Source: Frondihabitans peucedani (GTDB lineage Bacteria > Actinomycetota > Actinomycetes > Actinomycetales > Microbacteriaceae). Taken from it: a stretch of 64,000 bases of DNA. Below, piece after piece: positions 744 through 63,992 of the stretch. Positions within the stretch are counted from its first letter, which is position 1; each line of letters opens with the position of its first letter. A program made the translations under genes and the position numbers. The stretch is from NCBI RefSeq assembly GCF_039537585.1, contig NZ_BAABAU010000001.1, positions 1,612,001 through 1,676,000 of the forward strand. The letters run 5' to 3'. Below the pieces are notes generated by a model. It was given only the letters and a program-made list of their open reading frames with translations. It did no database searches and was not told the origin of the DNA.

Positions 744-1286
744 CTACAGTGTCGCCTCCAGCCGCACGACGGCGGGCCCGAGACGCAGGATCCCGTCGGT
801 CAGCGGCTCGCAGCGCATCCCCCCTCGGCCGCGCATCGCCTTGAAGACGCCGGGCGCGAGCTCCCGGTCCATCCACGCGCAGGGGTTCGCCGGGCGGTTG
901 GCGACGAACCCGACCGGCCCGTGGCCCGAGTCGACCGAGAAGCGGACTCCCCGGAGGGAGTCGACATCGAGCCCGCGCACCACGATGTTGCGCCTCGTCG
1001 CGGCGACGGGGAGGTGCTCCAGCCCGAGTTCGTGAGCGACCGACTCCAGTGCCTCCGCGGCGAAGAACGTCACCGAGGCCTGCCGGTGCGCCGGCTTGCC
1101 GAAGTACCGGTCGCCCACGATTCCGAGACCGGCTCGGAGCTCGATCTGCTCGCGGAGCTCGTCCTCTCCGGGAGCGAGCGGCAGGGCTCCGTCGGCGGGG
1201 CGGCCCTCGTAGCGGTGGTGCGGAGCAGCGAGGAGGAGCTCGATGCGGATCGCCTGATCCTGGGCGCCCCGGGCATTCGTGTCCAC
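744..1286 (-). CDS. MOSC domain-containing protein
   Basis: This 180-residue protein belongs to the MOSC (molybdenum cofactor sulfurase C-terminal) fold. Members bind molybdenum-cofactor- or sulfur-carrying ligands; the substrate of stand-alone bacterial members is mostly unknown. Supporting segments are HRYEGRPADG near residue 25, GIVGDRYFGK near 55 (the GDRH/Y loop of MOSC domains), TRRNIVVRG near 97 (the R-N-I/L motif) and the PCAWMD segment near 138. The start is a GTG at 1286 reading VDTNAR; no in-frame ATG lies nearby. It is transcribed leftwards, divergent from the MFS exporter. Family confidence is good; exact function is unknown. Confidence 0.8.
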   Translation of the reverse strand: MDTNARGAQDQAIRIELLLAAPHHRYEGRPADGALPLAPGEDELREQIELRAGLGIVGDRYFGKPAHRQASVTFFAAEALESVAHELGLEHLPVAATRRNIVVRGLDVDSLRGVRFSVDSGHGPVGFVANRPANPCAWMDRELAPGVFKAMRGRGGMRCEPLTDGILRLGPAVVRLEATL

Positions 1287-1395
1287 CGGGCCAGCGTACG
1301 GCCGGCGGCCGTCCCGTCGCGCCCCGAGACTGAGCCGTGAAGTCGATCTGAGACCACTGGGAATGGAAGCGCCGACTGGACGCTTGGCTCACTTC

Positions 1396-2619
1396 ATGAC
1401 ACAGACCTCAGATCGTCGCGGCTGGCTCGGAGTGCTCTCGGTGGCGCTCGGCTCGTTCGTCCTGGTGCTCTCCGAGTTCCTGCCCATCGGGCTCCTCCCG
1501 TCGATCGCCGACGACCTGCACGTCTCCATCGCGACCGCAGGATCGATGGTCGTCGCGACCGGTCTCGCTGGCGCGGTCGCGGCCCCGGTCGTGACGGTCC
1601 TCACGTCCAGGCTCGACCGGCGCATCGTGCTCTGGTCACTCACGGTCCTGCTCATCGTCGCCGACGTGGCGGGCGCTCTCGCGCCGAACTTCGCCGTCCT
1701 TGTCGCTGCGCGGGTCCTGCTCGGCGTCGGCATCGGCGGCTTCTGGGCGATCGGCGCCGGCATCGCCGGCCGCCTGGTGGCCGAGCCGTCCGTCATCCGC
1801 GCGACCTCGTTCATCACGGCCGGCGTCTCGGTCGCGACCGTGGTCAGCCTGCCGCTCGGAGCGTTCGTCGCCTCGGTGTCGACCTGGCGCGTGGCGTTCC
1901 TCATCGGCGCCGTCCTCGGGGCGATCGCCCTCGTCGGGCAGCTCGCCATGCTTCCCCGCATCCCCTCCCTGTCGCGCGTCCGCTTCGCCACCCTCGGCGG
2001 CCTCCTGACCATCTCGCGCGCGCGGGTCGGGCTCATCGGCACCGCGTTCGTCTTCGTCGCGCAGTTCGCGGCCTACACCTTCGTCGCCCCGTACCTAGAG
2101 GACGTCGTGAAGGTCGACGGCCAGACCGTCACCCTCGCCCTCCTCGTCTTCGGCGTCGCCGGCATCATCGGCAACTTCGTCGCCGGATCGACGCTGAGCC
2201 GCAACCTCCTCGGCACCCTCGGCGTGGCCAAGTTCGTGCTCGCGGGCGCGGTCATCGCCCTGCCGTTCCTCGCCTTCTCGATCACGGGCGTCTTCCTCCT
2301 GCTGGCCGTCTGGGGCTTCGTCTGGGGAGCGCTGCCGCTCGGCATGCAGACCTGGATGGCGAAGGCGGCGCCGTCGGCGTCCGAGAGCAGCCTCGCGCTG
2401 TTCGTCACGACGATCCAGCTGTCGATCGCGGCCGGCTCGATCGTCGGCAGCGTGGCCGTCTCCGGCCTCGGGCTCGGCTTCGACTTCGGCATGGCCGGGG
2501 TCATCGCGGCGGCCGGCGCGGTCCTGCTGATCACCCTCGGCGTGCGGCGCCCGAAGCCCGTCTCCGGCGGGCGGGGCGGCGTGCCCGTCGTCACCGGGGC
2601 GGTCGAGGTGCCCTGCTGA
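1396..2619 (+). CDS. Major facilitator superfamily exporter (AraJ/NepI-like DHA1 type)
   Basis: A 407-residue polytopic membrane protein with about twelve hydrophobic segments. It has the usual MFS layout: a first segment ending in LSEFLPIGLLPSIADDL, a loop with TSRLDRR after helix 2, and a second half beginning around RARVGLIGTAF. The LSEFLPIG motif is typical of drug:H+ antiporter-1 members annotated as AraJ, NepI or sugar-efflux transporters. It most likely exports a small solute by proton antiport; the substrate cannot be read from sequence. The ATG at 1396 is preferred over upstream in-frame codons because it begins just before the first membrane segment. It faces away from the MOSC gene. 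Confidence 0.85.
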   Translation: MTQTSDRRGWLGVLSVALGSFVLVLSEFLPIGLLPSIADDLHVSIATAGSMVVATGLAGAVAAPVVTVLTSRLDRRIVLWSLTVLLIVADVAGALAPNFAVLVAARVLLGVGIGGFWAIGAGIAGRLVAEPSVIRATSFITAGVSVATVVSLPLGAFVASVSTWRVAFLIGAVLGAIALVGQLAMLPRIPSLSRVRFATLGGLLTISRARVGLIGTAFVFVAQFAAYTFVAPYLEDVVKVDGQTVTLALLVFGVAGIIGNFVAGSTLSRNLLGTLGVAKFVLAGAVIALPFLAFSITGVFLLLAVWGFVWGALPLGMQTWMAKAAPSASESSLALFVTTIQLSIAAGSIVGSVAVSGLGLGFDFGMAGVIAAAGAVLLITLGVRRPKPVSGGRGGVPVVTGAVEVPC

Positions 2620-2621
2620 GC

Positions 2622-2666
2622 TGAGCCACGCTGAGCCGAGCCACGCTGAGCCGAGCCGCGCTGAGC
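2622..2666. repeat. Three tandem copies of a 15-bp unit after the MFS gene
   Basis: Starting at the end of the MFS stop codon, a 15-bp unit of the form (T/C)GAGCC(A/G)CGCTGAGC is repeated three times with one or two changes. It fills part of the short convergent gap before the IclR gene. It looks like local slippage; no binding function is evident. Confidence 0.8.
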
Positions 2667-2730
2667 TGAGCGCGAGCGGATCGGGTCGCCCGGGACCGGG
2701 CCGCGGCGGGACGCCGGCGGGCGCTCGCGC

Positions 2731-3483
2731 TCAGGCCCCGGCGGCCGCCCAGCCCAGCTCGCTCGACACGGCCGAGCCGGCCGCCCGCACCCGCGGCAGC
2801 AGCGCCAGGACCCCGTCGTGGTCGAGCGAGAGCGTCGGCACCGACACCGACAGCGCGGCCACGACCCGGCCGGAGCCGTCACGCACCGGAACGCCCACGC
2901 AGTTGATGAAGGCCTCGTGCTCCTCGTGATCCTGCGCCCAGTCGTCGGCCGTCACCCGGTCGAGCTCGTCGGCGAGCGCCGCCGGGGTCGTGATCGTGTT
3001 CGGGGTGAACCGGAGGTAGTCGAGCCCGGCGAGCAGCTCGTCGCGCTGCCGGGTCGGCAGGTCGGCGGCCAGCACCTTGCCGACCGCGGTGCAGTGGATC
3101 GGGGCTCGCAGGCCGATGCGGGAGTACATCCGGACCCCCTGCGGCGCGTCGATCTTGTCGACGTAGACCACCTCCGAGCCCTCCCTCGTGGCGAGGTGGA
3201 CGGTCTGCCCCGTGTCGGCGTTCAACCGCTCGAGGTGCGGGCGGGCCGCCTGCCGAACGTCGCGCTGCGCGAGGGCCGCGTTCGCGAGCTCGAAGACGCG
3301 ACTGCCGAGCCGGTACCGGTGCTGCTCGTCGTGGACGACGAAGCGGTCGGCCTCGAGCGTCCGCAGCAGCCGCAGCACGGTCGTCTTGTGCACCTCGGCG
3401 ATGCCGGCCAGGTCGTCGAGCGAGCGCGGCCCGGCCTCGAGGGCGCCGAGGAGTTGGAGCGCTCGGGCGAGACTCTGGCTCAT
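2731..3483 (-). CDS. IclR-family regulator, probably of ketodeoxygluconate metabolism
   Basis: A 250-residue IclR-type regulator. Residues about 1-65 form the winged helix-turn-helix (SLDDLAGIAEVHKTTVLRLL), and the rest is the effector-binding GAF-like domain, including the conserved HCTAVGKVLAA segment near 130 and the FINCVGVPV stretch near 190. The ATG at 3483 gives the standard family length. It is followed eleven bases upstream by the end of the 2-keto-3-deoxygluconate kinase gene, with KDPG aldolase divergent beyond that. By analogy with KdgR-type IclR proteins, it probably senses a ketodeoxy sugar acid and controls this cluster. Family is certain; ligand is inferred from context. Confidence 0.88.
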   Translation of the reverse strand: MSQSLARALQLLGALEAGPRSLDDLAGIAEVHKTTVLRLLRTLEADRFVVHDEQHRYRLGSRVFELANAALAQRDVRQAARPHLERLNADTGQTVHLATREGSEVVYVDKIDAPQGVRMYSRIGLRAPIHCTAVGKVLAADLPTRQRDELLAGLDYLRFTPNTITTPAALADELDRVTADDWAQDHEEHEAFINCVGVPVRDGSGRVVAALSVSVPTLSLDHDGVLALLPRVRAAGSAVSSELGWAAAGA

Positions 3484-3493: not shown

Positions 3494-4453
3494 CTAGGGC
3501 GCCCGGGGCGCGCCGTCCGCAGGCCCCACGTGGTCGCCATGCGACGCGAGCGCGATGACGGCCAGGCCGTGCGCCTCTTGAACGGCCTCGCGGACACCGC
3601 GCCCGGAGACGAGCGCCCCGAGGAACCCGGCCGCGAACGCGTCGCCGGCACCGATGGCCTCCACGACGTCCACGCGCAGCGCCGGGACGTCGTACCGGAC
3701 TTCTCCGTCGAAGGCCGTGGCCGCGTTCTCGTCGTCCTTCAGCACGATCACCCGGGGCTCGGGCAGGATCGCGCGCAGCTCGTCGGGATCGTCGCTGCTG
3801 AAGACGGTCCGCGCCTCCTCAGCGCCGAGCAGCACGACGTCGGCCGCCCTGGCCAGGTCGCCCAGCAGCCGCACCCCCTCGGCCTCCCGCCCGGCCCACA
3901 GCCGCGGTCGCCAGTTCAGGTCGAAGCTCAGGAGCCGCTCCCCGCGCGGCTCGGCGACCAGCGCGAGGCAGAGGTCGCGCGCCGAGTCGGACAGGGCTGC
4001 CGTGATGCCGGTGAGGTGCACGAGCACGGCGCCGTCGACGACCGCCCGCACCTCCGGTCGCTCGAGGTACGAGGGCGAGAGCGCGCTCCCCGCGGAGCCC
4101 TGCCGGTAGTAGTGCATGCGGCTGGTGGCCCGGCCCAGGTCGAACGGGTGCTCGCTCGCGCCGCCGACCTCCTTCACGTACAGGCCGGTGGACCGCGCAG
4201 GATCCACCTCCACGGCCGAGACGTCGACGCCGTGCCGGGTCAGCTCGTCGACCACGTGCCTGCCGAAGCCGTCGTCGCCGACCCGGGTCAGGAGCGCCGC
4301 CGGCACGCCCCTCGTCGACAGCCCGACGGCCACGTTGAGCTCGGCCCCGCCGATGCTCCGGACGAACGTCTCGCACGACTCCAGGGCACCCGGCACCTCC
4401 GGGACGAGGACGGTCAGGGCCTCGCCGACACTGGCGACCTTTGCGGTGTTCAC
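3494..4453 (-). CDS. kdgK: PfkB-family sugar kinase, probable 2-keto-3-deoxygluconate kinase
   Basis: A 319-residue ribokinase-fold (PfkB) enzyme. The glycine motif GGAELNVAVGLSTRG lies near residue 40 and the C-terminal signature with catalytic Asp, AIGAGDAFAAGFLGAL, near 270. Family members phosphorylate sugars or sugar acids with ATP. Placement between an IclR regulator and a divergent KDPG/KHG aldolase argues for KDG kinase, making KDPG for the aldolase to split into pyruvate and glyceraldehyde 3-phosphate. The start is taken as GTG at 4453, which aligns the N-terminus (KVASVGEALTVLVP) with relatives; a longer reading from 4513 would run into the divergent promoter. Substrate is inferred from neighbours. 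Confidence 0.83.
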   Translation of the reverse strand: MNTAKVASVGEALTVLVPEVPGALESCETFVRSIGGAELNVAVGLSTRGVPAALLTRVGDDGFGRHVVDELTRHGVDVSAVEVDPARSTGLYVKEVGGASEHPFDLGRATSRMHYYRQGSAGSALSPSYLERPEVRAVVDGAVLVHLTGITAALSDSARDLCLALVAEPRGERLLSFDLNWRPRLWAGREAEGVRLLGDLARAADVVLLGAEEARTVFSSDDPDELRAILPEPRVIVLKDDENAATAFDGEVRYDVPALRVDVVEAIGAGDAFAAGFLGALVSGRGVREAVQEAHGLAVIALASHGDHVGPADGAPRAP

Positions 4454-4530: not shown

Positions 4531-5229
4531 ATGACGCCCACTCCCCCTTTCGCCGCCGATCCTGCGGACTCCGACGCCGGCCTCGTGCTCCCCGTCACGA
4601 TGCGCCAGCCCGGACCGATCGACGCGATCGGTCGCGACCGGGCCGTCGTCGTCGTCCGCGCCGACGACATCCCGGACACCGCCGCTCTCGTGAACGCGCT
4701 CGTCGAGGGCGGCATCCACGGCATCGAGTTCACCTTCACCACGCCCGACGTCGAGCGCCACGTCCGCGCGGCCGTCGCCGCCGTGCCCGACGCCGAGATC
4801 GGGGTCGGCACCGTCCTGACCCGCGACCAGGCGCGCTCGGCCATCGACGCGGGAGCGGGCTTCCTCGTCACGCCCGGCGTCGTCGCGGGCGTCGGGGCCG
4901 TCGCTGCCGAGGCGGGCATCCCGCTGGCCATGGGAGCCTTCACGCCCTCGGAGGTCATCGCCGCCCTCGAGCACGGCGCGACGGCCGTCAAGATCTTCCC
5001 CGCCGAGACGTGCGGGCCGCGCTTCTTCGCGCACCTCCGCGGGCCGCTTCCCGGCGTCCGCCTGATCGCGTCGGGCGGCATCGACGAGAGCAACGCGCGC
5101 GCCTTCCTCGAGGCAGGCGCCTACGCCGTGACCGCAGGATCGAGCGTGGTCACCCCGTCCCTGATCGCCGCTCGCGACTGGGCCGGCATCACGCGCCGGG
5201 CCCGCGCGTTCATGGCCGCGCTCGCGTAG
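4531..5229 (+). CDS. eda: Bifunctional KDPG/KHG (2-dehydro-3-deoxy-phosphogluconate) aldolase
   Basis: A 232-residue class I aldolase with the KDPG/KHG beta-barrel fold. The catalytic Glu is in GGIHGIEFTFTT near residue 70, the substrate loop is VGTVLT near 92, and the Schiff-base Lys is in TAVKIFPAE near 154, followed by the phosphate-binding SGGIDESNA near 182. It cleaves KDPG (or 4-hydroxy-2-oxoglutarate) to pyruvate plus an aldehyde, the last step of Entner-Doudoroff and hexuronate routes. The ATG at 4531 is preceded by GAGGAGCGACG, a good ribosome site. About 25 residues before the barrel start form a non-conserved N-terminal extension. It is divergent from the KDG kinase. Confidence 0.92.
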   Translation: MTPTPPFAADPADSDAGLVLPVTMRQPGPIDAIGRDRAVVVVRADDIPDTAALVNALVEGGIHGIEFTFTTPDVERHVRAAVAAVPDAEIGVGTVLTRDQARSAIDAGAGFLVTPGVVAGVGAVAAEAGIPLAMGAFTPSEVIAALEHGATAVKIFPAETCGPRFFAHLRGPLPGVRLIASGGIDESNARAFLEAGAYAVTAGSSVVTPSLIAARDWAGITRRARAFMAALA

Positions 5230-5337: not shown

Positions 5338-6264
5338 TCAGCCGAGCGCGGCCGCGAGCTCGTCGGGCGTCGGCGGGTTGGCGCCGGCGCGCGAGACGGT
5401 CACCCGCGCGCTCGCCAGAGCCGTCGCCGCCACGGCCTCGAGGTCGCCGCGTCCGAGCACGCCAGAGCGGACGCCGTCGGCGAGACCCCGCGACAGGATC
5501 GCGAACAGCAGCCCCGACATGAAGGAGTCGCCCGCTCCGATGGTGTCGACCACGTCGACCGGCTGCGAGGGCAGCGAGAGGCGGTCGGTGGCCGTGGCGA
5601 CGAGGACGCCCTCGGCGCCGCGCGTGACGGCCACGAGGGTCGCACCGGCCTCGAGATACCGGTCGACGACCTCGTCGAGCAGGAGTCCCGGGTGCAGCCA
5701 GGCGGCGTCCTCGTCGCTCAGCTTCAGCACGTGCACGACGGATGCGAGGGCGTCGACGGTGGCCAGGACGGCCTCGCGGTCGGGGGTGACGCCGGGCCGG
5801 ACGTTGGGGTCGAAGCTCAGCAGGGCGCGCGGCCTGGACTCGGCGAAGAGCGCTGCCACGTCGTCGCTGCCGGGCCGGAGCGCCGACGCGATCGAGCCGG
5901 TGTGCACGAGGCCGACGCCGTCGGGCAGCGCCAGTTCGCCAGGCGCCCACTCGATGTCGAACTCGTACTCCGCGTGGCGGTCGGGCTGGATCGTCGCGAC
6001 GGCCGTCGAGGTGTGCTCGGCCGAGCGGGACGCCGGGTCGAGGACGACGCCGACGGGCGCCAGATGCTCCTCGAGGGCGCGGCCCCGCTGATCCTGCGCG
6101 ATCTGCGTACGGAGGGTCGTCGTCACTCCGAGCCGCGCGAGACCGTAGGCGACGTTCATCGGGCTGCCCCCCGGGTGCTCGACGGTGGAGTCGCCGTCGA
6201 CGACGATGTCGACGAGCGCCTCGCCGACGACGAAGGCGGACGGGAAGGCGGAGGGTGCGTGCAT
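5338..6264 (-). CDS. PfkB-family carbohydrate kinase, fructokinase-like
   Basis: A 308-residue ribokinase-fold kinase. It begins FVVGEALVDIVVDGD, has the substrate-loop motif HPGGSPMNVAYGLARLG near residue 35, and ends with the ATP/catalytic motif DTIGAGDSFMSGLLF near 245. The GGSPMNVA pattern and overall length resemble bacterial fructokinases (ScrK/FrcK type), which phosphorylate fructose at C6. No sugar transporter or invertase is adjacent, so the substrate is tentative. The ATG at 6264 gives the normal family N-terminus. It lies just past the terminator of the leftward ClpC gene, so it is probably transcribed on its own. Confidence 0.82.
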   Translation of the reverse strand: MHAPSAFPSAFVVGEALVDIVVDGDSTVEHPGGSPMNVAYGLARLGVTTTLRTQIAQDQRGRALEEHLAPVGVVLDPASRSAEHTSTAVATIQPDRHAEYEFDIEWAPGELALPDGVGLVHTGSIASALRPGSDDVAALFAESRPRALLSFDPNVRPGVTPDREAVLATVDALASVVHVLKLSDEDAAWLHPGLLLDEVVDRYLEAGATLVAVTRGAEGVLVATATDRLSLPSQPVDVVDTIGAGDSFMSGLLFAILSRGLADGVRSGVLGRGDLEAVAATALASARVTVSRAGANPPTPDELAAALG

Positions 6265-6371: not shown

Positions 6372-8948
6372 CTAGGCGGCGAGGACCGGCGCCTCGACGC
6401 GAGCCGCCAGGGCTCCGTCGACCACGTCGAGCGTGACGTGGTCGCCCCAGACGAGGCCGCCCTCGACCAGCAGCGTCGCGATCCTGTCGTCGACCTCGCG
6501 CTGGATCAGCCTGCGGAGCGGACGAGCGCCGTACTCGGGCTCGTAGCCGTTCTCTGCCAGCCACTCGATCGCCTCGGACGTCGCCCGGAAGCCCATGCCC
6601 TGCACGTCGAGCCGCACCGCCGTCTCGTGCAGCATCAGCGACACGATCGAGGCCAGCTGGTGCCGGTCGAGCTTCCGGAACAGGACGATCTCGTCGATGC
6701 GGTTGAGGAACTCGGGCCGCATCGCCTCGCGGAGCCTGCCCATGACCCGGTCGCGCAGCGCCTTCTCCGACCCGAAGCCGTTGCCGAGGTCGGCGTCCGA
6801 TCCTGCGCCGGCCACGAAGCCCATCGCACCGCCGCGCGAGGCGAGGAACTCCGAGCCGAGGTTCGACGTCATGATGACCACCGTGTTCCGGAAGTCGACC
6901 GTCCGGCCCTGGCCGTCGGTGAGTCGGCCGTCGTCGAGCACCTGCAGCAGCAGGTTGAACACGTCGGGGTGCGCCTTCTCGATCTCGTCGAGCAGGATCA
7001 CCGAGTACGGGTTGCGACGGACGCGCTCCGTGAGCTGGCCGGCCTCGTCGTAGCCGACGTATCCGGGAGGGGCGCCGACGAGGCGGGAGACGGTGTGACG
7101 CTCGCCGAACTCGGACATGTCGAAGCGGACCATCGCGCTCTCGTCGCCGAACAGCGACGACGCGAGCGCCTTCGCCAGCTCGGTCTTGCCCACGCCGGTC
7201 GGGCCGAGGAAGAGGAAGCTGCCGGTGGGGCGGCGCTGGTCGCCGAGGCCGGTGCGCGAGCGGCGGACGGCCTTCGCGATGGCGGTGACGGCAGCGTCCT
7301 GCCCGACGACGCGCTCGTGGAGCTCGCCCTCGAGCGCGGCCAGCCGGGAGCGGTCGCCCTCGGTGAGGCGGGCGGCGGGGATGCCGGTGGCGCGGGAGAT
7401 CATCTCGGCGATGTCGTCCTCGCCGATGACCGCGTCGTCGTCGGTGGCGACAGGCGCAGGATGCGACGTGGCCGCCTCCAGGCGCTGCTCCACCTCGGTC
7501 ATGCGGTCGCGGAGCTCCGAGGCCTCCTCGTACCGCTCGGCGGCGACGGCCTGGTTCTTCTGCGACTCGAGCTCGGCGAGCTCGGCCTGCAGCGCAGCCA
7601 GGTCGACCGTCGAGCCGAGGCGCAGGCGACGGCGGGCGCCGGCCTGGTCGATCAGGTCGATGGCCTTGTCGGGCAGGAAGCGGTCGGTGAGGTAGCGGTG
7701 CGACAGCTCGACCGCGGCGTGGAGCGCCTCGGGCGAGTAGGTGACCGCGTGGTGCTCCTCGTAGCGGGGAGCGAGGCCGGTCAGGATCGCCTCGGCGTCG
7801 GCCACCGAGGGCTCGGGCACCTGGACGGGCTGGAACCGGCGCTCGAGCGCGGCGTCCTTCTCCACCCGGCGGTACTCCGAGAGAGTCGTCGCACCGATGA
7901 GGTGCAGGTCGCCGCGGGCCAGCCGGGGCTTCAGGATGTTGCCGGCGTCCATGCCGCCGTCGCCGCCCGATCCTGCGCCGACGACGGTGTGCAGCTCGTC
8001 GACGAAGACGATGAGCTCGTCTCTGTGCGCGGTGATCTCGTCCATCGCCTTGGTGAGGCGCTCCTCGAAGTCGCCGCGGTAGCGGGTGCCCGCCACCATG
8101 CCGGCGAGGTCGAGGGCGACGACGCGCTTGCCGCGGAGGGGCTCGGGCACGTCACCGGTCGCGATGCGCTGGGCGAGGCCCTCGACGATGGCGGTCTTGC
8201 CGACACCGGGCTCGCCGATCAGCACCGGGTTGTTCTTGGTGCGGCGGAGCAGGATCTCGACGGTCTGCTCGATCTCGTCGGCACGCCCGATGACCGGGTC
8301 GATGCCGCCGTCGCGGGCGACCTGCGTGAGGTCGGTGCCGTAGGTGTCGAGTGTCGGCGTCTCGGACTGCTGACCCTGGCCGGCGGTCTGAGCACCTGCG
8401 CCGGCAGCGCCGGACGCAGCGGGGCCGCCCTGCGCGAAGGCCTGCATGACCGCGGGCGTGATGCCGTGCGCGGCGAGGAGCTGACCCGGGAGGGCGTCCT
8501 GGTTCACGACCAGCGCGAACATGACGTGCTCCGGGTCGACGTAGGTGGAGCCGAAGGCCCGGGCAGCCTGAGCCGCCTCGAGGAGGAGGCGCTGCGCCGC
8601 AGGGGTGAGCGCGGGGCGCGCGGGAGCGTCCGCGCTGGCGCCGGGCAGACGCCCCTCGATCGCGGCCACGAGAGCGCCGGTGTCGGCACCTGCGAACGCG
8701 ACCAGGTCGCTGGCCGGCGAGCGGTCGATGACGACCCGCAGCAGGTGCAGAGCGTCGACCTCGGCGTGGCCGTGAGAGACGGCGAACTGCGCCGCCGCAG
8801 CCACGAGCTCGTGAGTGCGGCGGCTGAGCAGCCGGCCGATGTCGACGGGGCGGCCGAACGCCGAGCCGCCCTGGTTGTTCAGCAGTCGGGCGAGGATCGC
8901 GTCGAACGAGTTGTCGCCGGAGTCTGCCGGGGTGAAGCTTTCAGGCAA
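6372..8948 (-). CDS. clpC: Clp-family AAA+ unfoldase (ClpC-like ATP-binding subunit)
   Basis: A protein of about 858 residues with an N-terminal Clp_N repeat domain and two AAA+ modules with Walker A motifs GEPGVGKT and GPTGVGKT. Between them is a short UVR-like coiled segment ([17 protein letters not shown]), which is ClpC-type and shorter than a ClpB M-domain. GAMGF before the FLNRIDE segment may be a ClpP-contact loop. It unfolds proteins, probably feeding ClpP. An ATG exists at 8960, but the GGAGG right after it is well spaced for the TTG at 8948, and [11 protein letters not shown] then matches family N-termini, so 8948 is chosen. The HspR operator just upstream implies heat-shock control. 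Confidence 0.88.
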
Positions 8949-9048: not shown

Positions 9049-9728
9049 TAGTTCTTGTAGACGCCCTGCGACAGGACCTGGGCGGCGCGCGCCGCCACTT
9101 CAGCCCGGACGAGCACCTCGTAGCGGCCCGCCTCCATAGTCTTGACCGACGAGAAGTCGCGCTGCCCGCGGGTGGCCGCGTGGCCGAGGAATCCGAACAG
9201 GGCTCCCCAGAGGGCGCCGAAGCCGACTGCCGTGAGGAGGACGCCGAAGGGGTTGACTCCGCCGACGAAGATGCTGAACAGGATGCCGATGGCGAGACCG
9301 AACCAGAGGCCGCTCACGAGACCGCGGACGGCAGCGCGGCCGTTCGTCAGCCGACCGGAGACGTTCTCGACCGTGCGGATGTCGTGGCCGACGATCGACA
9401 CGTTCTCGACCGGGAAGCCCTCGTCGCTCAGGGTGTCGACGGCCTTCTGGGCATCCTCGTACTTCGTGAAGGTCGCGACGACCTGCGGATAGCTGCCGCC
9501 GACGAACGCACCGACGCCGCCGATCGACTCGGCCGCGGAGCCCGTGGTCTCGGCGGTCGGGGCGGAGGCGGCCTGCGGCGGCTGCGATCCTGCCGGGGCG
9601 TACTCTCCGTAGGCGGGACGCTCGGGACGCTCGGCGCGCTCGGGGGTCTCGGGGCTCTCGGCGGCGGGCCGGTCGTCGTCACCGGGGAGGTCGTGAGCGG
9701 GGCGGCCGGTCGGGATGTCGTTCGACAT
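9048..9728 (-). CDS. General stress protein, YflT/GSP17M-like domain with glycine-zipper membrane segment
   Basis: A 226-residue protein. Residues 1-75 are acidic and proline-rich, with repeated P-E-R units, and are probably disordered. Next is a GSP17M/YflT-like alpha-beta domain (VVATFTKYEDAQKAVDTL, VENVSIVGHD). Then come two hydrophobic stretches rich in glycine (GLVSGLWFGLAIGILFSIFV, GVLLTAVGFGALWGALFGF), likely membrane-inserted, and a short C-terminal strand region. Homologues are annotated as general stress proteins of unknown mechanism. The ATG at 9728 has AGAGGAAACC upstream. It runs towards clpC and ends at the second HAIR-like site, so read-through into clpC is possible. Confidence 0.8.
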   Translation of the reverse strand: MSNDIPTGRPAHDLPGDDDRPAAESPETPERAERPERPAYGEYAPAGSQPPQAASAPTAETTGSAAESIGGVGAFVGGSYPQVVATFTKYEDAQKAVDTLSDEGFPVENVSIVGHDIRTVENVSGRLTNGRAAVRGLVSGLWFGLAIGILFSIFVGGVNPFGVLLTAVGFGALWGALFGFLGHAATRGQRDFSSVKTMEAGRYEVLVRAEVAARAAQVLSQGVYKN

Positions 9729-19865: not shown

Positions 19866-22946
<3,081 letters not shown>

Positions 22947-39365: not shown

Positions 39366-39398
39366 TCCTGCGGGCCCTGGGCCTTCACCCTCACCCGG

Positions 39399-46761: not shown

Positions 46762-46820
46762 CGCGATCCTGCCCTCGCTGCGCGGTGCGCGGCCGTCGCG
46801 TGACGGATAGCCCCGGGCGG

Positions 46821-48326: not shown

Positions 48327-48359
48327 CGCGGCGCCGACCCCGGCGAGGCGGCGCCGAGC

Positions 48360-53378: not shown

Positions 53379-53399
53379 CTGCCGGGCGGGGCGACGGAC

Positions 53400-53469
53400 G
53401 GCGCCACAGGACGGCAGCGGTGCAGCGCCGCGGCGGGGTGCCCGCGCCGAGGCGACCCGCCGGAGGCCG
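53400..53469. repeat. 70-bp intergenic repeat, copy D
   Basis: Matches copy C (50129-50198) at 68 of 70 positions; the two changes are A for G and C for T. It lies in the convergent gap between the operon that starts at 50271 and the small membrane protein at 53501. The two copies bracket that operon in direct orientation, about 3.2 kb apart. Confidence 0.87.
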
Positions 53470-53500: not shown

Positions 53501-53911
53501 TCAGGCGGGCAGGGCGGCGCCGACCGGCGCGTGACGGCGGGCGGGGCGGAGGCTGAGGCGGTAGGAGCGCGGCACCATGGCGCCGGCGGCGATCAGCTCG
53601 CGGCCGTCGCGCGGGTCGAGGAGGGGGAGGTCGCCGGCCAGGAGCGGCACGCTCGTGTAGCCCGCGGCCTTCTCGCGGGCGACGACGCGCGGCAGGGCGA
53701 TGCGGCAGAGCGGGAGGGCGACGATGCCCACGACCGTGACCAGGACCGGCAGGATCGTCGCGTCGAGACCGGCCGTCGCACCGGAGGCGACCATGAGGAG
53801 GGTGCCGACGAGCGAGAGCGTGCCGAGGGCGACGAAGGCGGCCGCCAGGACGGTCGCGAGGGCCCAGGTGTACGCGGGGACGCCGGAGACGAGGCGGGTG
53901 CTCTGCTGCAT
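53501..53911 (-). CDS. Small two-helix membrane protein of unknown function
   Basis: A 136-residue protein with two adjacent hydrophobic stretches (YTWALATVLAAAFVALGTLSLVGTLLMVAS and ILPVLVTVVGIVALPLCRI) and a basic, extra-membrane C-terminal half with LLAGDLPLLDPRDGRELIAAGAMVPRSYRLSLRP. I recognise no family. The ATG at 53911 is used; an upstream in-frame ATG at 53938 would add nine residues. It reads towards the repeat at 53400-53469. Codon bias and third-position GC are like its neighbours, which supports it being a real gene. Confidence 0.6.
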   Translation of the reverse strand: MQQSTRLVSGVPAYTWALATVLAAAFVALGTLSLVGTLLMVASGATAGLDATILPVLVTVVGIVALPLCRIALPRVVAREKAAGYTSVPLLAGDLPLLDPRDGRELIAAGAMVPRSYRLSLRPARRHAPVGAALPA

Positions 53912-56647: not shown

Positions 56648-58015
<1,368 letters not shown>

Positions 58016-58098: not shown

Positions 58099-58484
58099 AA
58101 CAGGAACTCACGAGCGCCGAGGTCGACCTCCTCTTCCACGCGCTGGCCGACGCCACCCGGCGCGACATCGTCCAGCGCGTGATCGACGAGGAGCAGTCGG
58201 TGTCGACGCTCGCGCGCGCCTACGAGGTCAGCTTCGCTGCGATCCAGAAGCACGTCGCGGTCCTCGAGCGCGCGCGCCTCGTCACGAAACGGCGCCGCGG
58301 CCGGGAGCAGATCGTGCACGGCGAGATCGACACGCTGAGCCGGGCCGAGCGGCTCCTCCAGCAGTACCTCGAGCTCTGGCAGCAGCGGGCGGGCCGCATG
58401 GACGCCCTGCTGCGAGAAGACGAGGGGCGTGATCCTGCGCCCTCGGCCGGACCGACACCCGTCACACGGAAGGACACCCCATGA
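58089..58484 (+). CDS. ArsR-family winged-helix regulator
   Basis: A 131-residue ArsR-type regulator: EVDLLFHALADATRRDIVQRVIDEEQSVSTLARAYEVSFAAIQKHVAVLERARLVTKRRRGREQIVHGE is the standard winged helix. It lacks the metal-binding ELCVC motif of arsenic or zinc sensors and belongs to the group that accompanies SRPBCC (AHSA1) proteins. It begins with MVVQQ at an ATG inside a 20-bp palindrome. Its stop overlaps the next start as ATGA, so regulator and SRPBCC protein form one translationally coupled unit. The effector is unknown. Confidence 0.9.
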   Translation: MVVQQELTSAEVDLLFHALADATRRDIVQRVIDEEQSVSTLARAYEVSFAAIQKHVAVLERARLVTKRRRGREQIVHGEIDTLSRAERLLQQYLELWQQRAGRMDALLREDEGRDPAPSAGPTPVTRKDTP

Positions 58485-59206: not shown

Positions 59207-60478
59207 TCACCTGTCCGATTGTCGCGACCCGACAATGCGAGCCGGATCGACGAGGGACCGGTTGATCTCGAGGCGGACGAGCTCCGCGGCATCCTGGTCG
59301 TCGCGGTAGAACGACCGGATCCGCAGGCCCTCCCACAGCCCGAGCATCCACACGCCGGCCTCGTCGGGGTCGACCCCCGGGCGCAGGAGCCCGTCGGCCT
59401 GCACCTCGCGGTAGACGCCCCGCAACCGGTCGATCAGCCGACCGTACCGCTCGACGAAGTACGCCTGGGCAGGATGGTACGGATCGACCGCCTCGAACGC
59501 CAGAGCCGAGCGCACCCGCGAGATGTCTCCGGCGTCGGGGTAGGCGAACGCGAGCTCGTAGACCTCGCGGAGGTAGTCGAGGCCACGAGCCTCGTCGCCG
59601 CTGGCGATGCGCGGCTGGTCGGGCCGCCCGCCGGCCTCGAGGACCTCGCGCAGGAGGTCCTCCTTCGTCGGGAAGTGGTAGATCAGCGTCGTGTGGGGGA
59701 TGTCGAGCTCCGCGGCGATGGCCCTGATGCGCGCCTTCCGGAAGCCCTCCGCGGCGAAGACGACGCCGGCAGCCCGGACGATCCGGTCGCGGAGGGGGAG
59801 GTCGGTGTCGTCGGCGGCAGCGGCGCCGGGACCGAGGCGTCGCGCAGGAGGCTGCGAGGGGCGTGCCGGATCGCGCGGGACAGGATCGTGCAGGGCAGGA
59901 TCGCGCACGGTCGTCAGCGGCGGATACCCGGCCCCGTCGCCGACCTCCGCGATCCTGCGATCGAGGCTCGTCCACGGGTCGATGCGCGACGGCTCGTAGA
60001 GCCACATCAGACGGAGGCCCTCCCATCCCGCCTGGACGGCGCGCGCCTCGGGCCCGAGGCTCCCTCCGAGCAGCCCCTCGATCCCGGAGAGCTGCTCGGC
60101 GACGAACGCGTGCCCGGCGTGCGACGGCCGCCGCGCCTCGCCGATCAGGTTCGTGTAGAGCGTCGCCTCGTCGCGCCTCTCGAGGAGGCGGTCGAGGAGG
60201 AGCCGGACCTGCTCGCGCGGCGGCCGGTCGGCCACGCCCAGCGCTCGGAACGCCTCGAGGTTCCGATCGTTGATCCGCTCGACCATGGCCGTGTAGAGGG
60301 CCTCCTTGTCGGCGAAGTGCCGGGCGACGCCGGGCGCGCTCATCCCGGCCCGGGCGGCGACGCCGCGGAGGGAGCCGTCGGCGTAGCCCCGCGCCACGAA
60401 CTCGGCCTCGGCGGCGTCGAGGATCTCGACCCGGCTCGCCGCGCTGCGTCGGCGTCGGCCGTCGGAGGGGGTGGCCAT
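59207..60478 (-). CDS. Tandem (double) TetR regulator in one polypeptide
   Basis: A 423-residue protein made of two complete TetR units. Unit 1 (residues 1-195) has RVEILDAAEAEFVARGYADGSLRGVAARAGMSAPGVARHFADKEALYTAMV near 17-66 and a ligand domain. A flexible linker of D-P and P-S repeats (about 195-225) leads to unit 2 with DRIVRAAGVVFAAEGFRKARIRAIAAELDIPHTTLIYHFPTKEDLLREVL near 232-280 and its own ligand domain. Normally TetR proteins dimerise; a fused pair could act as a built-in pseudo-dimer and bind an asymmetric site. The ATG at 60478 is used. CCGAC/GTCGG dyads flank both ends of the gene. Confidence 0.9.
   Translation of the reverse strand: MATPSDGRRRRSAASRVEILDAAEAEFVARGYADGSLRGVAARAGMSAPGVARHFADKEALYTAMVERINDRNLEAFRALGVADRPPREQVRLLLDRLLERRDEATLYTNLIGEARRPSHAGHAFVAEQLSGIEGLLGGSLGPEARAVQAGWEGLRLMWLYEPSRIDPWTSLDRRIAEVGDGAGYPPLTTVRDPALHDPVPRDPARPSQPPARRLGPGAAAADDTDLPLRDRIVRAAGVVFAAEGFRKARIRAIAAELDIPHTTLIYHFPTKEDLLREVLEAGGRPDQPRIASGDEARGLDYLREVYELAFAYPDAGDISRVRSALAFEAVDPYHPAQAYFVERYGRLIDRLRGVYREVQADGLLRPGVDPDEAGVWMLGLWEGLRIRSFYRDDQDAAELVRLEINRSLVDPARIVGSRQSDR
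59218..59236. promoter_or_regulatory. Inverted repeat overlapping the end of the double-TetR gene
   Basis: ATTGTCG-N5-CGACAAT is a perfect 19-bp dyad that covers the last codons of the double-TetR gene. The half-site CCGACAAT recurs at 60534-60541 on the other side of the gene, which suggests both are recognised by the same protein; alternatively it is part of a termination hairpin. Confidence 0.45.
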
Positions 60479-60589: not shown

Positions 60590-62581
60590 GTGACTCGACC
60601 GCACGAAGCCCGCTGGCTCCTCGCCCTCGCCGCGCTCGTCGCGTGCTTCGTCGTCGTCGCCACCTGGAACCTCGGTACGGCCGGCTACTCCGAGTTCTAC
60701 GCCTCGGCGGCACACAGCATGACTGTGAGCGGCGGTGCGTTCTGGTCGGGGTCATTCGATCCTGCGGCGACCATCACCCTCGACAAGCTGTCGGGATTCC
60801 TGGTGCCGCAGGCCCTCTCGGCCCGGCTGTTCGGGTTCCACGAGTGGTCGCTCGCGCTCCCGCAGGTCGTCGAGGGCGCCGTGACGATCGTCGCGGTGTT
60901 CGTCATCGGTCGTCGTCTCCGTGGTCCGGGGACCGGCCTCCTCGCCGCCGGGGCCTTCGCCGTCACGCCCCTGATGGTCTCGATGTTCGGCCACACGATG
61001 GAGGACGGCCTCCTCACGATGAGCCTCGCGGTGGCCTTCGTCTTCTTCCAGCGCTCAGTCGAGACCGGTCGGGTCAGAGACCTCGTGCTCGCCGGGATCG
61101 TCGTCGGGATCGGCTTCCAGGCGAAGATGCTGCAGGCGTGGTTCATCGTGCCCGCGCTCGTGGTCGCCGTCCTGGTCGCCGGGCGGCCTCTGCTCCGGTC
61201 GCGGCTCAAGCGGGGGCTCCTGCTGATCGGCGTCGTCATCGTGGCCTCCCTCGCCTGGATGACCGTGATGCAGCTGATCCCCGCCGGGTCGCGGCCGTTC
61301 TTCGACGGCAGCCGCGAGGACGACGTGTTCACGCAGGTCTTCGGCTACAACGGCCTGAACCGCTTCGTGCCCGGCCTGATCCCGGGGGCGGCGCCGACGT
61401 TCCACAGCCCGACGCTGTCTCCCGGCTCGGACGGGATCAGCCCGCTGAAGCTCCTCGAGCCGGCGTTCGCCACCCAGGTCGGCTGGTTCTTCCCGTTGGC
61501 GCTCGCGGGACTCGTGGGCTCGCCGCGTCGACGGGCGCAGGATCACGCCACCGCCACGACGACCATCGCCCTCGGCGGCTGGCTCGTCACCTCCGTCGCG
61601 GTCCTCAGCGTCACGGCGATCCCGCACACGGCCTACCTGGCGGCGGTGAGCGTCCAAGTGAGCCTCTTCGCGGCCATCGGGCTGCGCGACTCCGCAGCCG
61701 CGGCCCGACAGGGGCGACCGGCCCCGCTCCTCGCGGTCGTGGGGGTCTCGACGGCGTGGAGCCTCGTGCTCCTGGTGAAGAGCACCGTCGCGCCGACCTG
61801 GCTGATCGCCGTCGTCGCGCTGACCGGCGGCCTCGCGGTCGTGGTGCTCGCGGGGGTGCTGGTCTCGCGGGTCGTGCTCTCGCGGGTCCTGGTCTCACGG
61901 GTCCTGGTCTCGGCGCGGCTGCCGAGAGCCCGCCGACCCCGCCGCGCACCCCGAGGCGGCCTGGCCCTCGTCGTCACGGTCGCCACGGCGCTGGGAGCGG
62001 CGGCCCTCGTTGCCGCACCCTCCGTCTGGACGCTGTCGACTCTCGATCCTGCGCTCGCCGGCACGGCCAACGACGCCTACGCCGGCCCGCGCCCTCAGCG
62101 GGTGGGGTTCTTCTTCCAGACCGATGCCCCTCCGGCTGATCGCGAGTCGTTCGACCGCTTCCGGGTCGAGCCGCCGGTCTGGTCCGCCCCCGACGTCGCT
62201 CTCACGCCGGAGCAGGAGAGCCTCGTCCGCTTCACCCGCCGGAACATCGACGGCGGCCCTCTCTTCACGACGACGTCCTGGTTCGAGGCAGCGCCTTATC
62301 TCATCGCCGCCGGGCTCGACGTCCGGTCGATCGGCGGGTTCTCCGGAGCGATCCCGACGCCCACGCTCGGCGAGGTGCGACGCGGCGTCGCGGACGGCTC
62401 GCTCCGCTACTTCCTGCTGCCGTCTCGCTCGACGCCGCGTGCAGGATCGGCGGGAGGGCGAACCGAGGCGGGCAGGATCACGGCCTGGGTGACCGCATCC
62501 TGCTCTCTCGTGCCCGACTCGCGCTACGAGGGCACGACCACGCTGGCCGGCCTGTCGCTCTGGGACTGCCGGGTGCGGTGA
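60590..62581 (+). CDS. GT39-like (ArnT/mannosyltransferase-type) membrane glycosyltransferase
   Basis: A 663-residue polytopic protein. It has about ten to twelve hydrophobic segments, from WLLALAALVACFVVVATWNL onward. The luminal loop with GTAGYSEFYASAAHSM and FDPAATITLDKLSGFLVPQALSARLFGFHEWSL is the family hallmark near residue 30-85, and MFGHTMEDGLLTMSLAVAFVFF near 130 follows. The last 150 residues are a soluble domain without further membrane segments. Members use polyprenyl-phosphate sugars to glycosylate proteins or lipids at the outer face. The start is GTG at 60590, after the double-TetR promoter region. The acceptor is unknown; the family assignment is firm at superfamily level. Confidence 0.82.
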   Translation: MTRPHEARWLLALAALVACFVVVATWNLGTAGYSEFYASAAHSMTVSGGAFWSGSFDPAATITLDKLSGFLVPQALSARLFGFHEWSLALPQVVEGAVTIVAVFVIGRRLRGPGTGLLAAGAFAVTPLMVSMFGHTMEDGLLTMSLAVAFVFFQRSVETGRVRDLVLAGIVVGIGFQAKMLQAWFIVPALVVAVLVAGRPLLRSRLKRGLLLIGVVIVASLAWMTVMQLIPAGSRPFFDGSREDDVFTQVFGYNGLNRFVPGLIPGAAPTFHSPTLSPGSDGISPLKLLEPAFATQVGWFFPLALAGLVGSPRRRAQDHATATTTIALGGWLVTSVAVLSVTAIPHTAYLAAVSVQVSLFAAIGLRDSAAAARQGRPAPLLAVVGVSTAWSLVLLVKSTVAPTWLIAVVALTGGLAVVVLAGVLVSRVVLSRVLVSRVLVSARLPRARRPRRAPRGGLALVVTVATALGAAALVAAPSVWTLSTLDPALAGTANDAYAGPRPQRVGFFFQTDAPPADRESFDRFRVEPPVWSAPDVALTPEQESLVRFTRRNIDGGPLFTTTSWFEAAPYLIAAGLDVRSIGGFSGAIPTPTLGEVRRGVADGSLRYFLLPSRSTPRAGSAGGRTEAGRITAWVTASCSLVPDSRYEGTTTLAGLSLWDCRVR

Positions 62582-62670
62582 GCCTCGGCTCCCGCTCCCC
62601 GACTCGACCTGGACGCGTGAGCCCACGAGCCCTAGGGTTGCGCCGAGCGGATCACCGAGAGGGGCAGCAC

Positions 62671-63312
62671 GTGTCGAAGGTCAGAGTCCACAACTTCGCG
62701 GTGTCGCTGGACGGCTACGGAGCCGGGGCGGACCAGTCGATGGAGCAGCCCTTCGGCCACGCCGACGGCCGCCTGATGAGCTGGTTCATGGGCACGAGGT
62801 CGTTCCACGCCATGCAGGGCCAGGAGGGCGGCAGCACCGGCGTCGACGAGTCGTTCGCCTCCGCCTGGGGTCCGGGCATCGGCGTCGAGATCATGGGCCG
62901 CAACAAGTTCGGCCCGCAGCGCGGCCCGTGGACCGACGACGACTGGATCGGCTGGTGGGGCGACGAGCCGCCGTTCCACACGCCCGTCGTCGTCCTGACC
63001 CACCACCCTCGCGAGCCCCTCGCGCTCGAGGGCACGACGTTCCACTTCGTCGACGCCGCACCTCGGGAGGCCCTCGCCGAGGCGCGCGCGCTGGCACCCG
63101 ACACCGACGTTCGGATCGGCGGCGGCGTCGAGACCGTTCGGGAGTTCCTCGAGGCAGACCTGATCGACCACCTGCACGTCGCTGTGGTGCCGATCGTCCT
63201 CGGCCGGGGCGAGCAGCTCTGGACCGGCCTGGAGAGGGTCGAGGAGCGCTTCGACATCGAGACGACCGCATCGCCCTCCGGCGTGACGCACCTGGTCTTC
63301 ACCCGGAAGTAG
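62671..63312 (+). CDS. Dihydrofolate reductase-fold (RibD C-terminal-like) protein
   Basis: A 213-residue NADPH-dependent reductase fold. VRVHNFAVSLDGYGAGADQSMEQPFG at the N-terminus, IEIMGRNKFGP-like sequence near 70 (GVEIMGRNKFGPQRG), VVVLTHHPREPLALEGTTFHFV near 108 and IGGGVETVREFLEADLIDHLHVAVVPIVLGRGEQLW near 148 are the RibD-C/YyaP pattern. Members of this group are common in actinobacteria; most have no proven substrate. The start is GTG at 62671 with GAGAGGGG upstream. It precedes a TetR gene with an operator-like dyad between. Confidence 0.88.
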   Translation: MSKVRVHNFAVSLDGYGAGADQSMEQPFGHADGRLMSWFMGTRSFHAMQGQEGGSTGVDESFASAWGPGIGVEIMGRNKFGPQRGPWTDDDWIGWWGDEPPFHTPVVVLTHHPREPLALEGTTFHFVDAAPREALAEARALAPDTDVRIGGGVETVREFLEADLIDHLHVAVVPIVLGRGEQLWTGLERVEERFDIETTASPSGVTHLVFTRK

Positions 63313-63325
63313 TACCGGGGTCTGA

Positions 63326-63348
63326 TGCACTATCGAGTGGAGAGTGCA
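63326..63348. promoter_or_regulatory. TGCACT/AGTGCA dyad before the last TetR gene
   Basis: TGCACT (63326-63331) and AGTGCA (63343-63348) form an inverted pair with an 11-base spacer, just 11 bases before the TetR start at 63360. TGCAC-type half-sites are common for TetR regulators of MFS exporters, so autoregulation is likely. Confidence 0.6.
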
Positions 63349-63359
63349 ATTCTGATCGG

Positions 63360-63992
63360 ATGATCCCGAAGAAGACGCGCACCCGCTCGGCGCTCGTCAC
63401 GCGCGCCCGACGGCTGACGGCCGAGGTCGGGCTCTCCGGCTTCACCGTGCAGCAGCTCGCCGACGACGTCGGGATCTCGCGCCGCACCTTCTTCAACCAC
63501 TTCCCCACGAAGGAGTCGGCGGTCCTCGGCATCGAGAACGGCCTCGACGACGCCCTGATCGCCGCGTTCACGACGGCCCGCCGGGCCGAGGACGCCGACC
63601 AACGCCACCTCCTCGACGATCTCGCCGAGCTCGCCATCGCCCACTTCGAGGCGATGAGCCCGACCGCATCCGACCTCGACGACCTCCTGACGGCCATCCA
63701 GCGCGAGCCGCGCCTCATCCAGGCCCTGATCCTCACCGGCCGAGCCGAGCAGCGCCGCTTCGTCGACCTCCTCGTGGAGTCCGATCCGTCGCAGGATCGC
63801 GCGGCCGCCGAGGTCGCGGCCGTCGCCTTCGAGGCCCTGACCCGGCTCAGCGTCGACCTCGTGCTCCGCGGCGGCGACGCACGGCCGTTCGCCGCGATCC
63901 TGCGCGAGCGGATCGCCCTCGCGCGCACCCTCTTCACCGACCAGGCCTCCCCGGCCTCCCCGCCCTCGACCCCCCAGGAGCAGACCGCATGA
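63360..63992 (+). CDS. TetR-family regulator, first gene of an operon running off the window
   Basis: A 210-residue TetR regulator: RSALVTRARRLTAEVGLSGFTVQQLADDVGISRRTFFNHFPTKESAVLGI at residues 9-58 is a full DNA-binding domain, with the TFFNHF recognition segment. The rest is the helical ligand/dimer domain (LDDLLTAIQREPRLIQALILTGRAEQRRFVDLL). The tail is Pro/Ser-rich. The start ATG at 63360 follows an operator-like dyad. Its TGA overlaps the ATG of the next gene (ATGA), so it is translationally coupled to that gene, most often an exporter in such arrangements; the partner's identity cannot be read here. Confidence 0.9.
   Translation: MIPKKTRTRSALVTRARRLTAEVGLSGFTVQQLADDVGISRRTFFNHFPTKESAVLGIENGLDDALIAAFTTARRAEDADQRHLLDDLAELAIAHFEAMSPTASDLDDLLTAIQREPRLIQALILTGRAEQRRFVDLLVESDPSQDRAAAEVAAVAFEALTRLSVDLVLRGGDARPFAAILRERIALARTLFTDQASPASPPSTPQEQTA

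Follow-up and report, generated by a model that had tools for sequence, protein, structure and literature searches.

The octamer GATCCTGC/GCAGGATC occurs in 76 exact copies (39 as GATCCTGC, 37 as GCAGGATC) in a 64-kb stretch of the Frondihabitans peucedani genome (the window, G000:C1:1612001-1676000; the genome, here G000, has 3,692,699 bases in 12 contigs), where base composition alone predicts 2.1 and a third-order Markov model 11.7. The over-use is strong and independent of reading frame and strand, the word is spelled differently among Frondihabitans species, it separates chromosome from plasmid-like contigs in two genomes, and pilus and Com genes are present. Taking these analyses together, we suggest, at slightly less than even confidence, that GATCCTGC (with its flanks, C-GATCCTGC-GC) may be a chromosome self-recognition word working like a DNA uptake sequence (DUS).

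In the mechanism we have in mind, a surface DNA receptor, perhaps a type IVa pilus pilin, would prefer word-bearing DNA, ComEA/ComEC would bring this DNA in, and recombination of word-bearing fragments would raise the frequency of the word (molecular drive). Drift of the receptor would then give each species its own spelling. Biased uptake with recombination predicts species spellings, a density of ~1/kb, neutrality to strand and frame, absence from plasmids, graded over-use of end-mismatched words, and turnover of sites. DNA uptake by these proteins in Frondihabitans, binding of the word by a receptor, and uptake as the spreading force are what we infer.

The whole genome contains 3,208 copies (1629 forward and 1579 reverse; 0.87/kb). 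The word read backwards, used as a control, has 22 copies in G000; CTAG is rare in such genomes, and as the control contains it, the contrast is flattered. For analysis by gene, 41 stretches including the window were sampled (792,148 bases; four short contigs account for 8,148 of these, which read N), and genes were called by a simple method based on codon usage (713 genes, with 86% of the sequence coding). These stretches hold 706 sites; called genes leave 113,933 bases uncovered (N included), and 89 sites lie entirely within that remainder. Within 711 genes, 607 sites were observed, compared to 77.2 ± 7.8 (maximum 94) in 100 per-gene synonymous codon shuffles. Every reading exceeded its shuffled expectation: in sense, Ile-Leu (227 observed, 58 expected), GAT-CCT-GC (120, 2.5) and the reading from codon position 2, Arg/Gly-Ser-Cys (6, 0.35); in antisense, Arg-Ile (94, 8.7), Gln-Asp (75, 6.5) and GCA-GGA-TC (85, 1.0). 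GATCCTGC ranks first among all octamers (606 against 77, C2 stretch left out), and the runners-up overlap it.

The sequence-only reading of the window had counted about 70 copies by eye against roughly two expected from composition, close to the exact figures, and had found both orientations equally common, as they are in the window and genome-wide. Its proposal of a preference for the DNA word as such, irrespective of what it encodes, is borne out by the codon shuffle and the top rank among octamers: the count is far from the shuffled expectation, and the enrichment extends beyond Ile-Leu pairs.

An artefact of composition or codon pairing has next to no chance of explaining these counts. The Ile-Leu reading is common anyway (58 of the 227 are expected) and density rises with GC content, but all six readings are enriched, density outside genes is similar, plasmid-like contigs are flat, and spellings differ between genomes of like composition; the shuffle thus rules this candidate out.

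One-base neighbours of the word are raised mainly where the change lies at an end, as in CATCCTGC (first base C, 163 observed against 76 expected), GATCCTGA (last base A, 123 against 33), GATCCTGG (188 against 70) and GATCCTGT (70 against 23). The internal changes GTTCCTGC, GATCGTGC, GATCCCGC and GATGCTGC are up 1.7-1.9-fold, and two others, GATCCTCC (31 against 93) and GGTCCTGC (62 against 101), are depleted. The flanks show a weak preference for C on the 5' side and GC on the 3' side (54-56%).

Strand balance is roughly even in each sampled stretch. Relative to GC skew, 331 sites lie on the G-rich strand and 374 on the C-rich strand, a slight tilt (Spearman -0.45, p 0.005, 36 stretches). Forward sites number 100 in the first 206 kb of C1 (0.48/kb, compared to 0.44/kb for the whole genome), indicating no leading-strand bias, with the leading strand judged by GC skew and contig position only. 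The strong polarity towards the terminus of a segregation word such as KOPS (FtsK-orienting polar sequences) is not seen, and neither is a leading-strand bias like that of Chi. A Chi-like recombination hotspot, read by a RecBCD/AddAB-class enzyme, is very unlikely: this lack of bias is joined by a 48- to 85-fold enrichment in the rare-codon readings, stronger than that of Chi. The octamer length would fit such a hotspot, as would the variation of Chi between species (PMC3630211).

Sites in genes are read in sense more often than in antisense (353 and 253), an excess that the Ile-Leu reading may explain. Even spacing was rejected (coefficient of variation of the gaps 1.04, simulated 1.02), and gaps of 50-100 bases are scarcer than expected (14 against 31). 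In Neisseria, uptake words form inverted pairs at terminators. Here there are 41 pairs of sites less than 60 bases apart, 24 arranged -+, 6 +- and 11 the same way; ten of them are the overlapping palindrome GCAGGATCCTGC, found 10 times in 764 kb of G000. By type of intergenic gap, density is 1.25/kb in convergent, 1.09/kb in divergent and 0.88/kb in tandem gaps.

Contig C2 of G000 (94,412 bases, 64% GC), which encodes a TrwC relaxase and a TraG-type coupling protein, has 6 sites where the Markov model expects 7.4, and is thus at background. Three small G000 contigs of chromosomal composition have 121 sites for an expectation of 23. In a second species (G285), contig C1 has 157 sites in 240 kb (expectation 35), and contig C2 has 3 (expectation 4.7; 80 kb read of 449,692).

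Spellings among the Microbacteriaceae

The comparison with related Microbacteriaceae that the sequence-only reading had proposed was made with 299 genomes of the family, seven of them Frondihabitans (G000, G004, G087, G150, G201, G246 and G285), and revealed dialects within Frondihabitans and a related word, GCATCCG, in other genera. GATCCTGC is raised in all seven Frondihabitans (844 to 3,208 copies, 0.22-0.87/kb), and each over-uses TCCT(G)-cored words with species-specific ends; the spellings CGATCCTGC, CGGATCCT, AGTTCCTGC and GCTCCTGC have only TCCT in common. Codon shuffles on 240-280 kb from each of the six relatives gave the following spellings (observed/expected): in G285, GATCCTGC 117/19; in G087, GATCCTGC 115/17 and GCTCCTGC 106/33; in G246, GATCCTGC 72/16 and GCATCCTG 63/19; in G150, GCTCCTGC 124/34, GATCCTGC 73/14 and GCATCCTG 68/16; in G201, GTTCCTGC 90/19, AGTTCCTG 75/19 and GATCCTGC 61/16; and in G004, GGATCCTG 104/13, CGGATCCT 102/15, GGATCCTT 37/4 and GATCCTGC 63/13. 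The 11-mer AGTTCCTGCGC occurs 53 times in 280 kb of G201, compared to counts of 0, 0, 0, 0, 1, 0 and 0 in the seven remaining samples (120-764 kb).

The phosphoenolpyruvate (PEP) carboxylase encoded in the window has its best named relatives in two Frondihabitans (83% identity), which fits the genus. A tree of this enzyme resolved the genus as ((G150,(G246,G087)),((G004,G201),(G285,G000))), each of the four inner branches having good support. GCTCCTGC is up in G150 and G087, but G246, the third member of their clade, shows no rise (13/17). GCATCCTG is up in G246 and G150, and also in G000 (172/57).

Turnover was followed at 159 sites aligned across the six relatives (80-83% identity): 46 were identical, 32 differed by one base, 34 by two and 47 by three or more. 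The observed/expected ratio for site identity was 2.05. All octamers together gave 1.34, expectation-matched words 1.31 and permuted words 1.58; among 508 frequent words, 15 exceeded GATCCTGC. Ordinary codons replace the word in some relatives, for example GACCCGGC or GATGCGCC. Judged from these alignments, sites appear to be retained somewhat above chance, yet to be turning over rather than fixed.

This retention bears on another explanation, in which a chromosome-organising or segregation protein binds the word and selection keeps sites on the chromosome only. The confinement of sites to the chromosome in G000 and G285, the genome-wide density near 1/kb and the above-chance conservation between species are all consistent with it. 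We nevertheless consider it unlikely, given that there is little strand bias (374:331 relative to GC skew) and hence no signal for a directional translocase, that spacing is random, that spellings differ in two of three sister pairs, and that only 29% of the aligned sites are kept.

Outside Frondihabitans, G047, from another genus, is the sole genome with a comparable density of GATCCTGC (1,559 in 2.9 Mb); most remaining family genomes are at or below 0.2/kb. Several G047 readings are enriched as well (sense GAT-CCT-GC 9 observed against 0.6 expected, antisense GCA-GGA-TC 5 against 0.3, Ile-Leu 19 against 4.3). In 120 kb of G047 there are 8 copies of the palindrome GCAGGATCCTGC, and the word may be read as a dyad in this genus.

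Among named loci (78 of 80 used, two from Frondihabitans being left out), GATCCTGC is mildly raised in Agromyces (9/3), Frigoribacterium (16/7) and Curtobacterium (45/31) and not raised in Agreia (5/6) or Microbacterium (0/2); because the loci of a genus come from the same region, these counts are not independent and one conserved site can be counted many times. In the same loci, GCATCC-type words are over-used in several genera, rare-codon readings included: Subtercola GGGCATCC 50/9.7, Agromyces AGGCATCC 17/1.2, Agreia CGCATCCG 44/10.6, Herbiconiux CGCATCCG 28/5.3, Microbacterium CGGCATCC 55/14 and Pseudoclavibacter GCGCATCC 38/9.4. Little GCATCC excess is seen in the named loci of Rathayibacter (0.96), Curtobacterium (1.17) and Frigoribacterium (1.22). 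When GCATCCG was compared with its backward control across the 299 genomes, some showed a 10-13-fold excess (e.g. G091, 5246/403, and G281, 5203/513); the ratio is 1.0-1.3 in Frondihabitans and 1.04 in G047. GCATCCG is low in other genera too (e.g. g35, g45 and g51), and its exclusion with GATCCTGC is therefore one-way.

GCATCCG and GATCCTGC could be versions of one system. On a broader reading, which we regard as possible though somewhat doubtful, the Microbacteriaceae would add a third family to the DNA uptake sequences, and the first from beyond the Proteobacteria: these single-membrane, high-GC bacteria would mark their chromosomes with dialects of a single ATCC-containing word, which a surface receptor would read. 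The GCATCCG type would then be that of many genera, and the GATCCTGC type that of Frondihabitans and one other genus.

Pilus, Com and methylase genes

G000 contains a type IVa pilus operon (C1:2144568-2155999) encoding PilB (T2SSE with MshEN), PilT (PF00437), a prepilin peptidase, PilM (PF11104), two PilA-like pilins and a third pilin bearing the N-methylation motif. The pilins of the operon lie at C1:2149445-2154619. Two more candidate pilins were picked out by eye, without a Pfam pilin match, and a putative PilC was assigned from its position and appearance. All seven Frondihabitans have a full-length PilB-type ATPase, and PilM occurs in all seven and in G047. ComEC was found in 28 of 30 relatives, including 7 of 7 Frondihabitans, and ComEA lies directly before ComEC in G087, the genome in which ComEA was checked. 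Natural transformation has been reported in two Microbacteriaceae, Rhodoluna lacicola and Aurantimicrobium photophilum (PMC11577799).

Two further observations concern these genes. The ComEC match of G246 is split over two adjacent frames (C1:2981383-2982173), which may reflect a frameshift or a sequencing error. A second PilB-type ATPase, near full-length, is encoded on the 450 kb second contig of G285 (C2:144909-146036).

The methylase families searched were PF01555 (7 of 7 Frondihabitans), PF02384 (3 of 7) and PF00145 (2 of 7), and none of these three tracks the spellings. The PF01555 protein of G000 (C4:121746-122591; L043:1743-2591, minus strand) is an orphan-looking N6/N4 DNA methylase of 282 aa. 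It has a match in 284 of the 299 family genomes, some of them weak, with at least 71% identity among the matches listed; within Frondihabitans the identity to the G000 protein is 90-94%, though spellings differ. Of the 15 genomes without a match, nine show a ratio of GCATCCG to control of 3.0-10 (G049, G112, G146, G163, G177, G223, G225, G265 and G281), five of which are at least 99% complete (G049, G163, G223, G265 and G281), and six are below 3 times (G030, G051, G121, G156, G196 and G247). Nearly invariant, family-wide, and unmatched in nine genomes with GCATCCG excess, this methylase, the only one of the three families searched that all seven Frondihabitans share, is not supported as the setter of spellings. 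GATC methylation was likewise rejected as the key, as some spellings drop GATC.

We consider it distinctly unlikely that the word is a HIP1-like (highly iterated palindrome) product of a methylase coupled to mismatch repair, as in Elhai's model for cyanobacteria. That model gains from the orphan N6/N4 methylase in all seven Frondihabitans, from G051 and G121, which lack both the enzyme and the GCATCCG excess, and from the one-base deviations at the word ends (first base C, last base A), and HIPs have alternates too (PMC4390886). It is opposed by the non-palindromic word, by GATC not being common to the spellings, by the near-constant PF01555 enzyme set against GCATCCG at least 3 times the control in 9 of 15 methylase-negative genomes, and by the patchy presence of PF02384 and PF00145 in Frondihabitans. 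The sequence-only reading had called the octamer HIP1-like; this stands as a resemblance, but the word is no palindrome, GATC is not its conserved part, and no methylase family searched follows it. Among the functions that had been offered, DNA uptake fits best, polar segregation is disfavoured, and methylation is unsupported as the cause of the spellings.

Several observations weigh against reading GATCCTGC as an uptake word. The chief weaknesses include the partial fit of the spellings to the tree, the independence of GCATCCG from the type IVa pilus and the small number of species compared (seven genomes). A spelling is shared in one of three sister pairs (G285/G000), and G004/G201 and G246/G087 differ; because GATCCTGC is enriched in all seven Frondihabitans, spellings overlap rather than cleanly replace one another, and their fit to the tree is partial. 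Any force acting on the chromosome only, or recent acquisition of the plasmids, would also leave plasmids without the word, and the extra contigs C2-C4 of G246 show partial enrichment (17 sites against 7.1). Density is higher where local GC is higher (Spearman 0.50 with the C2 stretch included), sites are randomly spaced, and inverted pairs do not appear to be a main feature of their arrangement. PilM is found in 145 of the 299 family genomes (144 over the cut-off), so its presence in the two lineages with GATCCTGC argues little for the reading. In genus g2, the ratio of GCATCCG to control is 7.2-8.4 in four PilM-negative genomes and 6.2 in the PilM-positive one. A type IVa pilus is thus unsupported as a requirement for GCATCCG, and uptake there would call for Tad pili or some other route.

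Sites, repeats and avoided words

By the gene calls, 70 of the 76 window sites are in genes, 5 lie between genes and 1 (39364) crosses a gene end (Table 1). The frames comprise 24 sense Ile-Leu, 13 sense GAT-CCT-GC, 13 antisense GCA-GGA-TC, and 10 in each of the other two antisense frames. Of the example sites named earlier, 4197, 60758 and 62045 do encode Asp-Pro-Ala, and 1537 and 36358 lie antisense in Ala-Gly-Ser; those placed at 15780, 34013 and 5125-5135 are really at 15781, 34012 and 5134, and 62451 is probably 62441. Position 43551, cited as Asp-Pro-Ala, instead falls between called genes. The two intergenic examples divide, 46765 being intergenic and 39364 overlapping the end of the PEP carboxylase gene.

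Table 1. Exact copies of the octamer in the window, with the reading in called genes or the location.
Octamer site	Strand	Reading or location
785..792	-	sense Ile-Leu
1537..1544	-	GCA GGA TC
2928..2935	+	intergenic
3763..3770	-	Ile-Leu
4197..4204	-	GAT CCT GC
4558..4565	+	GAT CCT GC
5134..5141	-	GCA GGA TC
6090..6097	+	antisense Gln-Asp
6799..6806	+	GCA GGA TC
6992..6999	-	Ile-Leu
7969..7976	+	GCA GGA TC
8249..8256	-	Ile-Leu
9586..9593	+	GCA GGA TC
11264..11271	-	antisense Gln-Asp
12662..12669	+	Ile-Leu
14153..14160	+	antisense Arg-Ile
15781..15788	-	GAT CCT GC
15931..15938	+	GCA GGA TC
16564..16571	-	GAT CCT GC
17204..17211	-	Ile-Leu
17437..17444	-	GAT CCT GC
18089..18096	+	antisense Arg-Ile
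18407..18414	-	Ile-Leu
20333..20340	-	Ile-Leu
20932..20939	+	GCA GGA TC
22424..22431	-	Ile-Leu
24358..24365	-	Ile-Leu
25268..25275	+	Ile-Leu
26793..26800	-	intergenic
27174..27181	+	intergenic
28385..28392	+	antisense Arg-Ile
28777..28784	-	GAT CCT GC
29083..29090	+	GCA GGA TC
31129..31136	-	GAT CCT GC
34012..34019	-	GCA GGA TC
34467..34474	+	Ile-Leu
35726..35733	+	antisense Arg-Ile
35827..35834	+	antisense Gln-Asp
36358..36365	-	GCA GGA TC
36483..36490	+	Ile-Leu
37222..37229	-	antisense Arg-Ile
39364..39371	+	straddles end of PEP carboxylase gene
41947..41954	-	antisense Gln-Asp
42844..42851	+	Ile-Leu
42948..42955	-	Ile-Leu
43551..43558	+	between called genes
44008..44015	+	antisense Gln-Asp
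45436..45443	+	Ile-Leu
46765..46772	+	intergenic
47144..47151	-	Ile-Leu
48439..48446	+	GCA GGA TC
48885..48892	+	antisense Arg-Ile
48959..48966	-	Ile-Leu
49901..49908	+	antisense Gln-Asp
50450..50457	+	Ile-Leu
50867..50874	-	antisense Gln-Asp
51558..51565	-	antisense Gln-Asp
51660..51667	+	Ile-Leu
51925..51932	+	GAT CCT GC
52346..52353	+	Ile-Leu
53151..53158	-	GCA GGA TC
53749..53756	-	Ile-Leu
54301..54308	+	antisense Arg-Ile
57101..57108	+	antisense Arg-Ile
57310..57317	-	Ile-Leu
57834..57841	-	GAT CCT GC
58431..58438	+	GAT CCT GC
59895..59902	-	GAT CCT GC
59951..59958	+	antisense Arg-Ile
60758..60765	+	GAT CCT GC
61537..61544	-	antisense Gln-Asp
62045..62052	+	GAT CCT GC
62441..62448	-	GCA GGA TC
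62472..62479	-	antisense Arg-Ile
63791..63798	-	antisense Gln-Asp
63896..63903	+	Ile-Leu

The window also contains GC-rich intergenic repeats of ~80 bases each (48271-48339, 50127-50205 and 53381-53469) and, just 3' of the PEP carboxylase gene and between convergent genes, a very strong hairpin (39380-39460; -56.5 kcal/mol, z -8.5), which is likely a terminator. With the repeats and the hairpin (39388-39451) as queries, 8 intergenic places, queries included, were found in the sampled G000 stretches; further copies exist. The octamer lies within 60 bases at only 1 of these 8 places, indicating no link. In the sampled G000 genes, words with GGTCC/GGACC (e.g. CCAGGTCC, 22 against 135) and GGAGGAT words (e.g. 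CATCCTCC, 9 against 111) are strongly avoided, possibly an avoidance of restriction sites and ribosome-binding sites.

Comparison with known systems

DNA discrimination of this kind is reportedly known from Neisseriaceae and Pasteurellaceae alone (PMC12616744). Among the titles listed by searches of the open-licence PubMed Central literature, there was no report of GATCCTGC/GCAGGATC as a genome-wide word, of an uptake sequence in Actinobacteria, Microbacteriaceae or Actinomycetota, or of a genome word in Frondihabitans. If the uptake reading is true, this would be a third case, in an actinobacterial family, implying that self-tagging has arisen more than once and does not depend on an outer membrane, and the spellings would provide a natural series in which the spread and change of uptake words could be tested. 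If it is wrong, a protein and a force must still be found for a strong chromosome-confined word whose spellings vary even among close species.

Chi and KOPS are polar relative to replication. Like Chi and the KOPS/FtsK octamers, GATCCTGC is eight bases long and genome-wide; unlike them, it is non-polar. The uptake signal sequences (USS) of Pasteurellaceae have a density near 1/kb and no polarity, with AT tracts downstream of the core; no AT tracts were seen within 12 bases on either side of GATCCTGC. As with the USS, at least two spellings occur in one family (PMC12616744). The resemblance to HIP1 lies in an octamer at ~1/kb with alternates in relatives and one-off words that vary at the ends, but HIPs, unlike GATCCTGC, are palindromes with matching methylases (PMC4390886).

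Uptake words have been described as commoner in one orientation within reading frames (PMC2346458). Neisseria DUS number ~1900 in 2.2-2.3 Mb and have dialects, single-off copies and overlapping dyads, the last resembling the palindrome GCAGGATCCTGC (PMC3630211). The Frondihabitans word differs from the DUS of Neisseriaceae in belonging to Actinomycetota, in being shorter and GC-rich, in having dialects that follow the tree only partly and apparently few inverted pairs, and in being known from sequence alone. It is like them in being short and non-palindromic, in occurring in thousands of copies on both strands, inside and outside genes, in having dialects that share a core, and in the presence of pilus and ComEC genes (PMC3630211).

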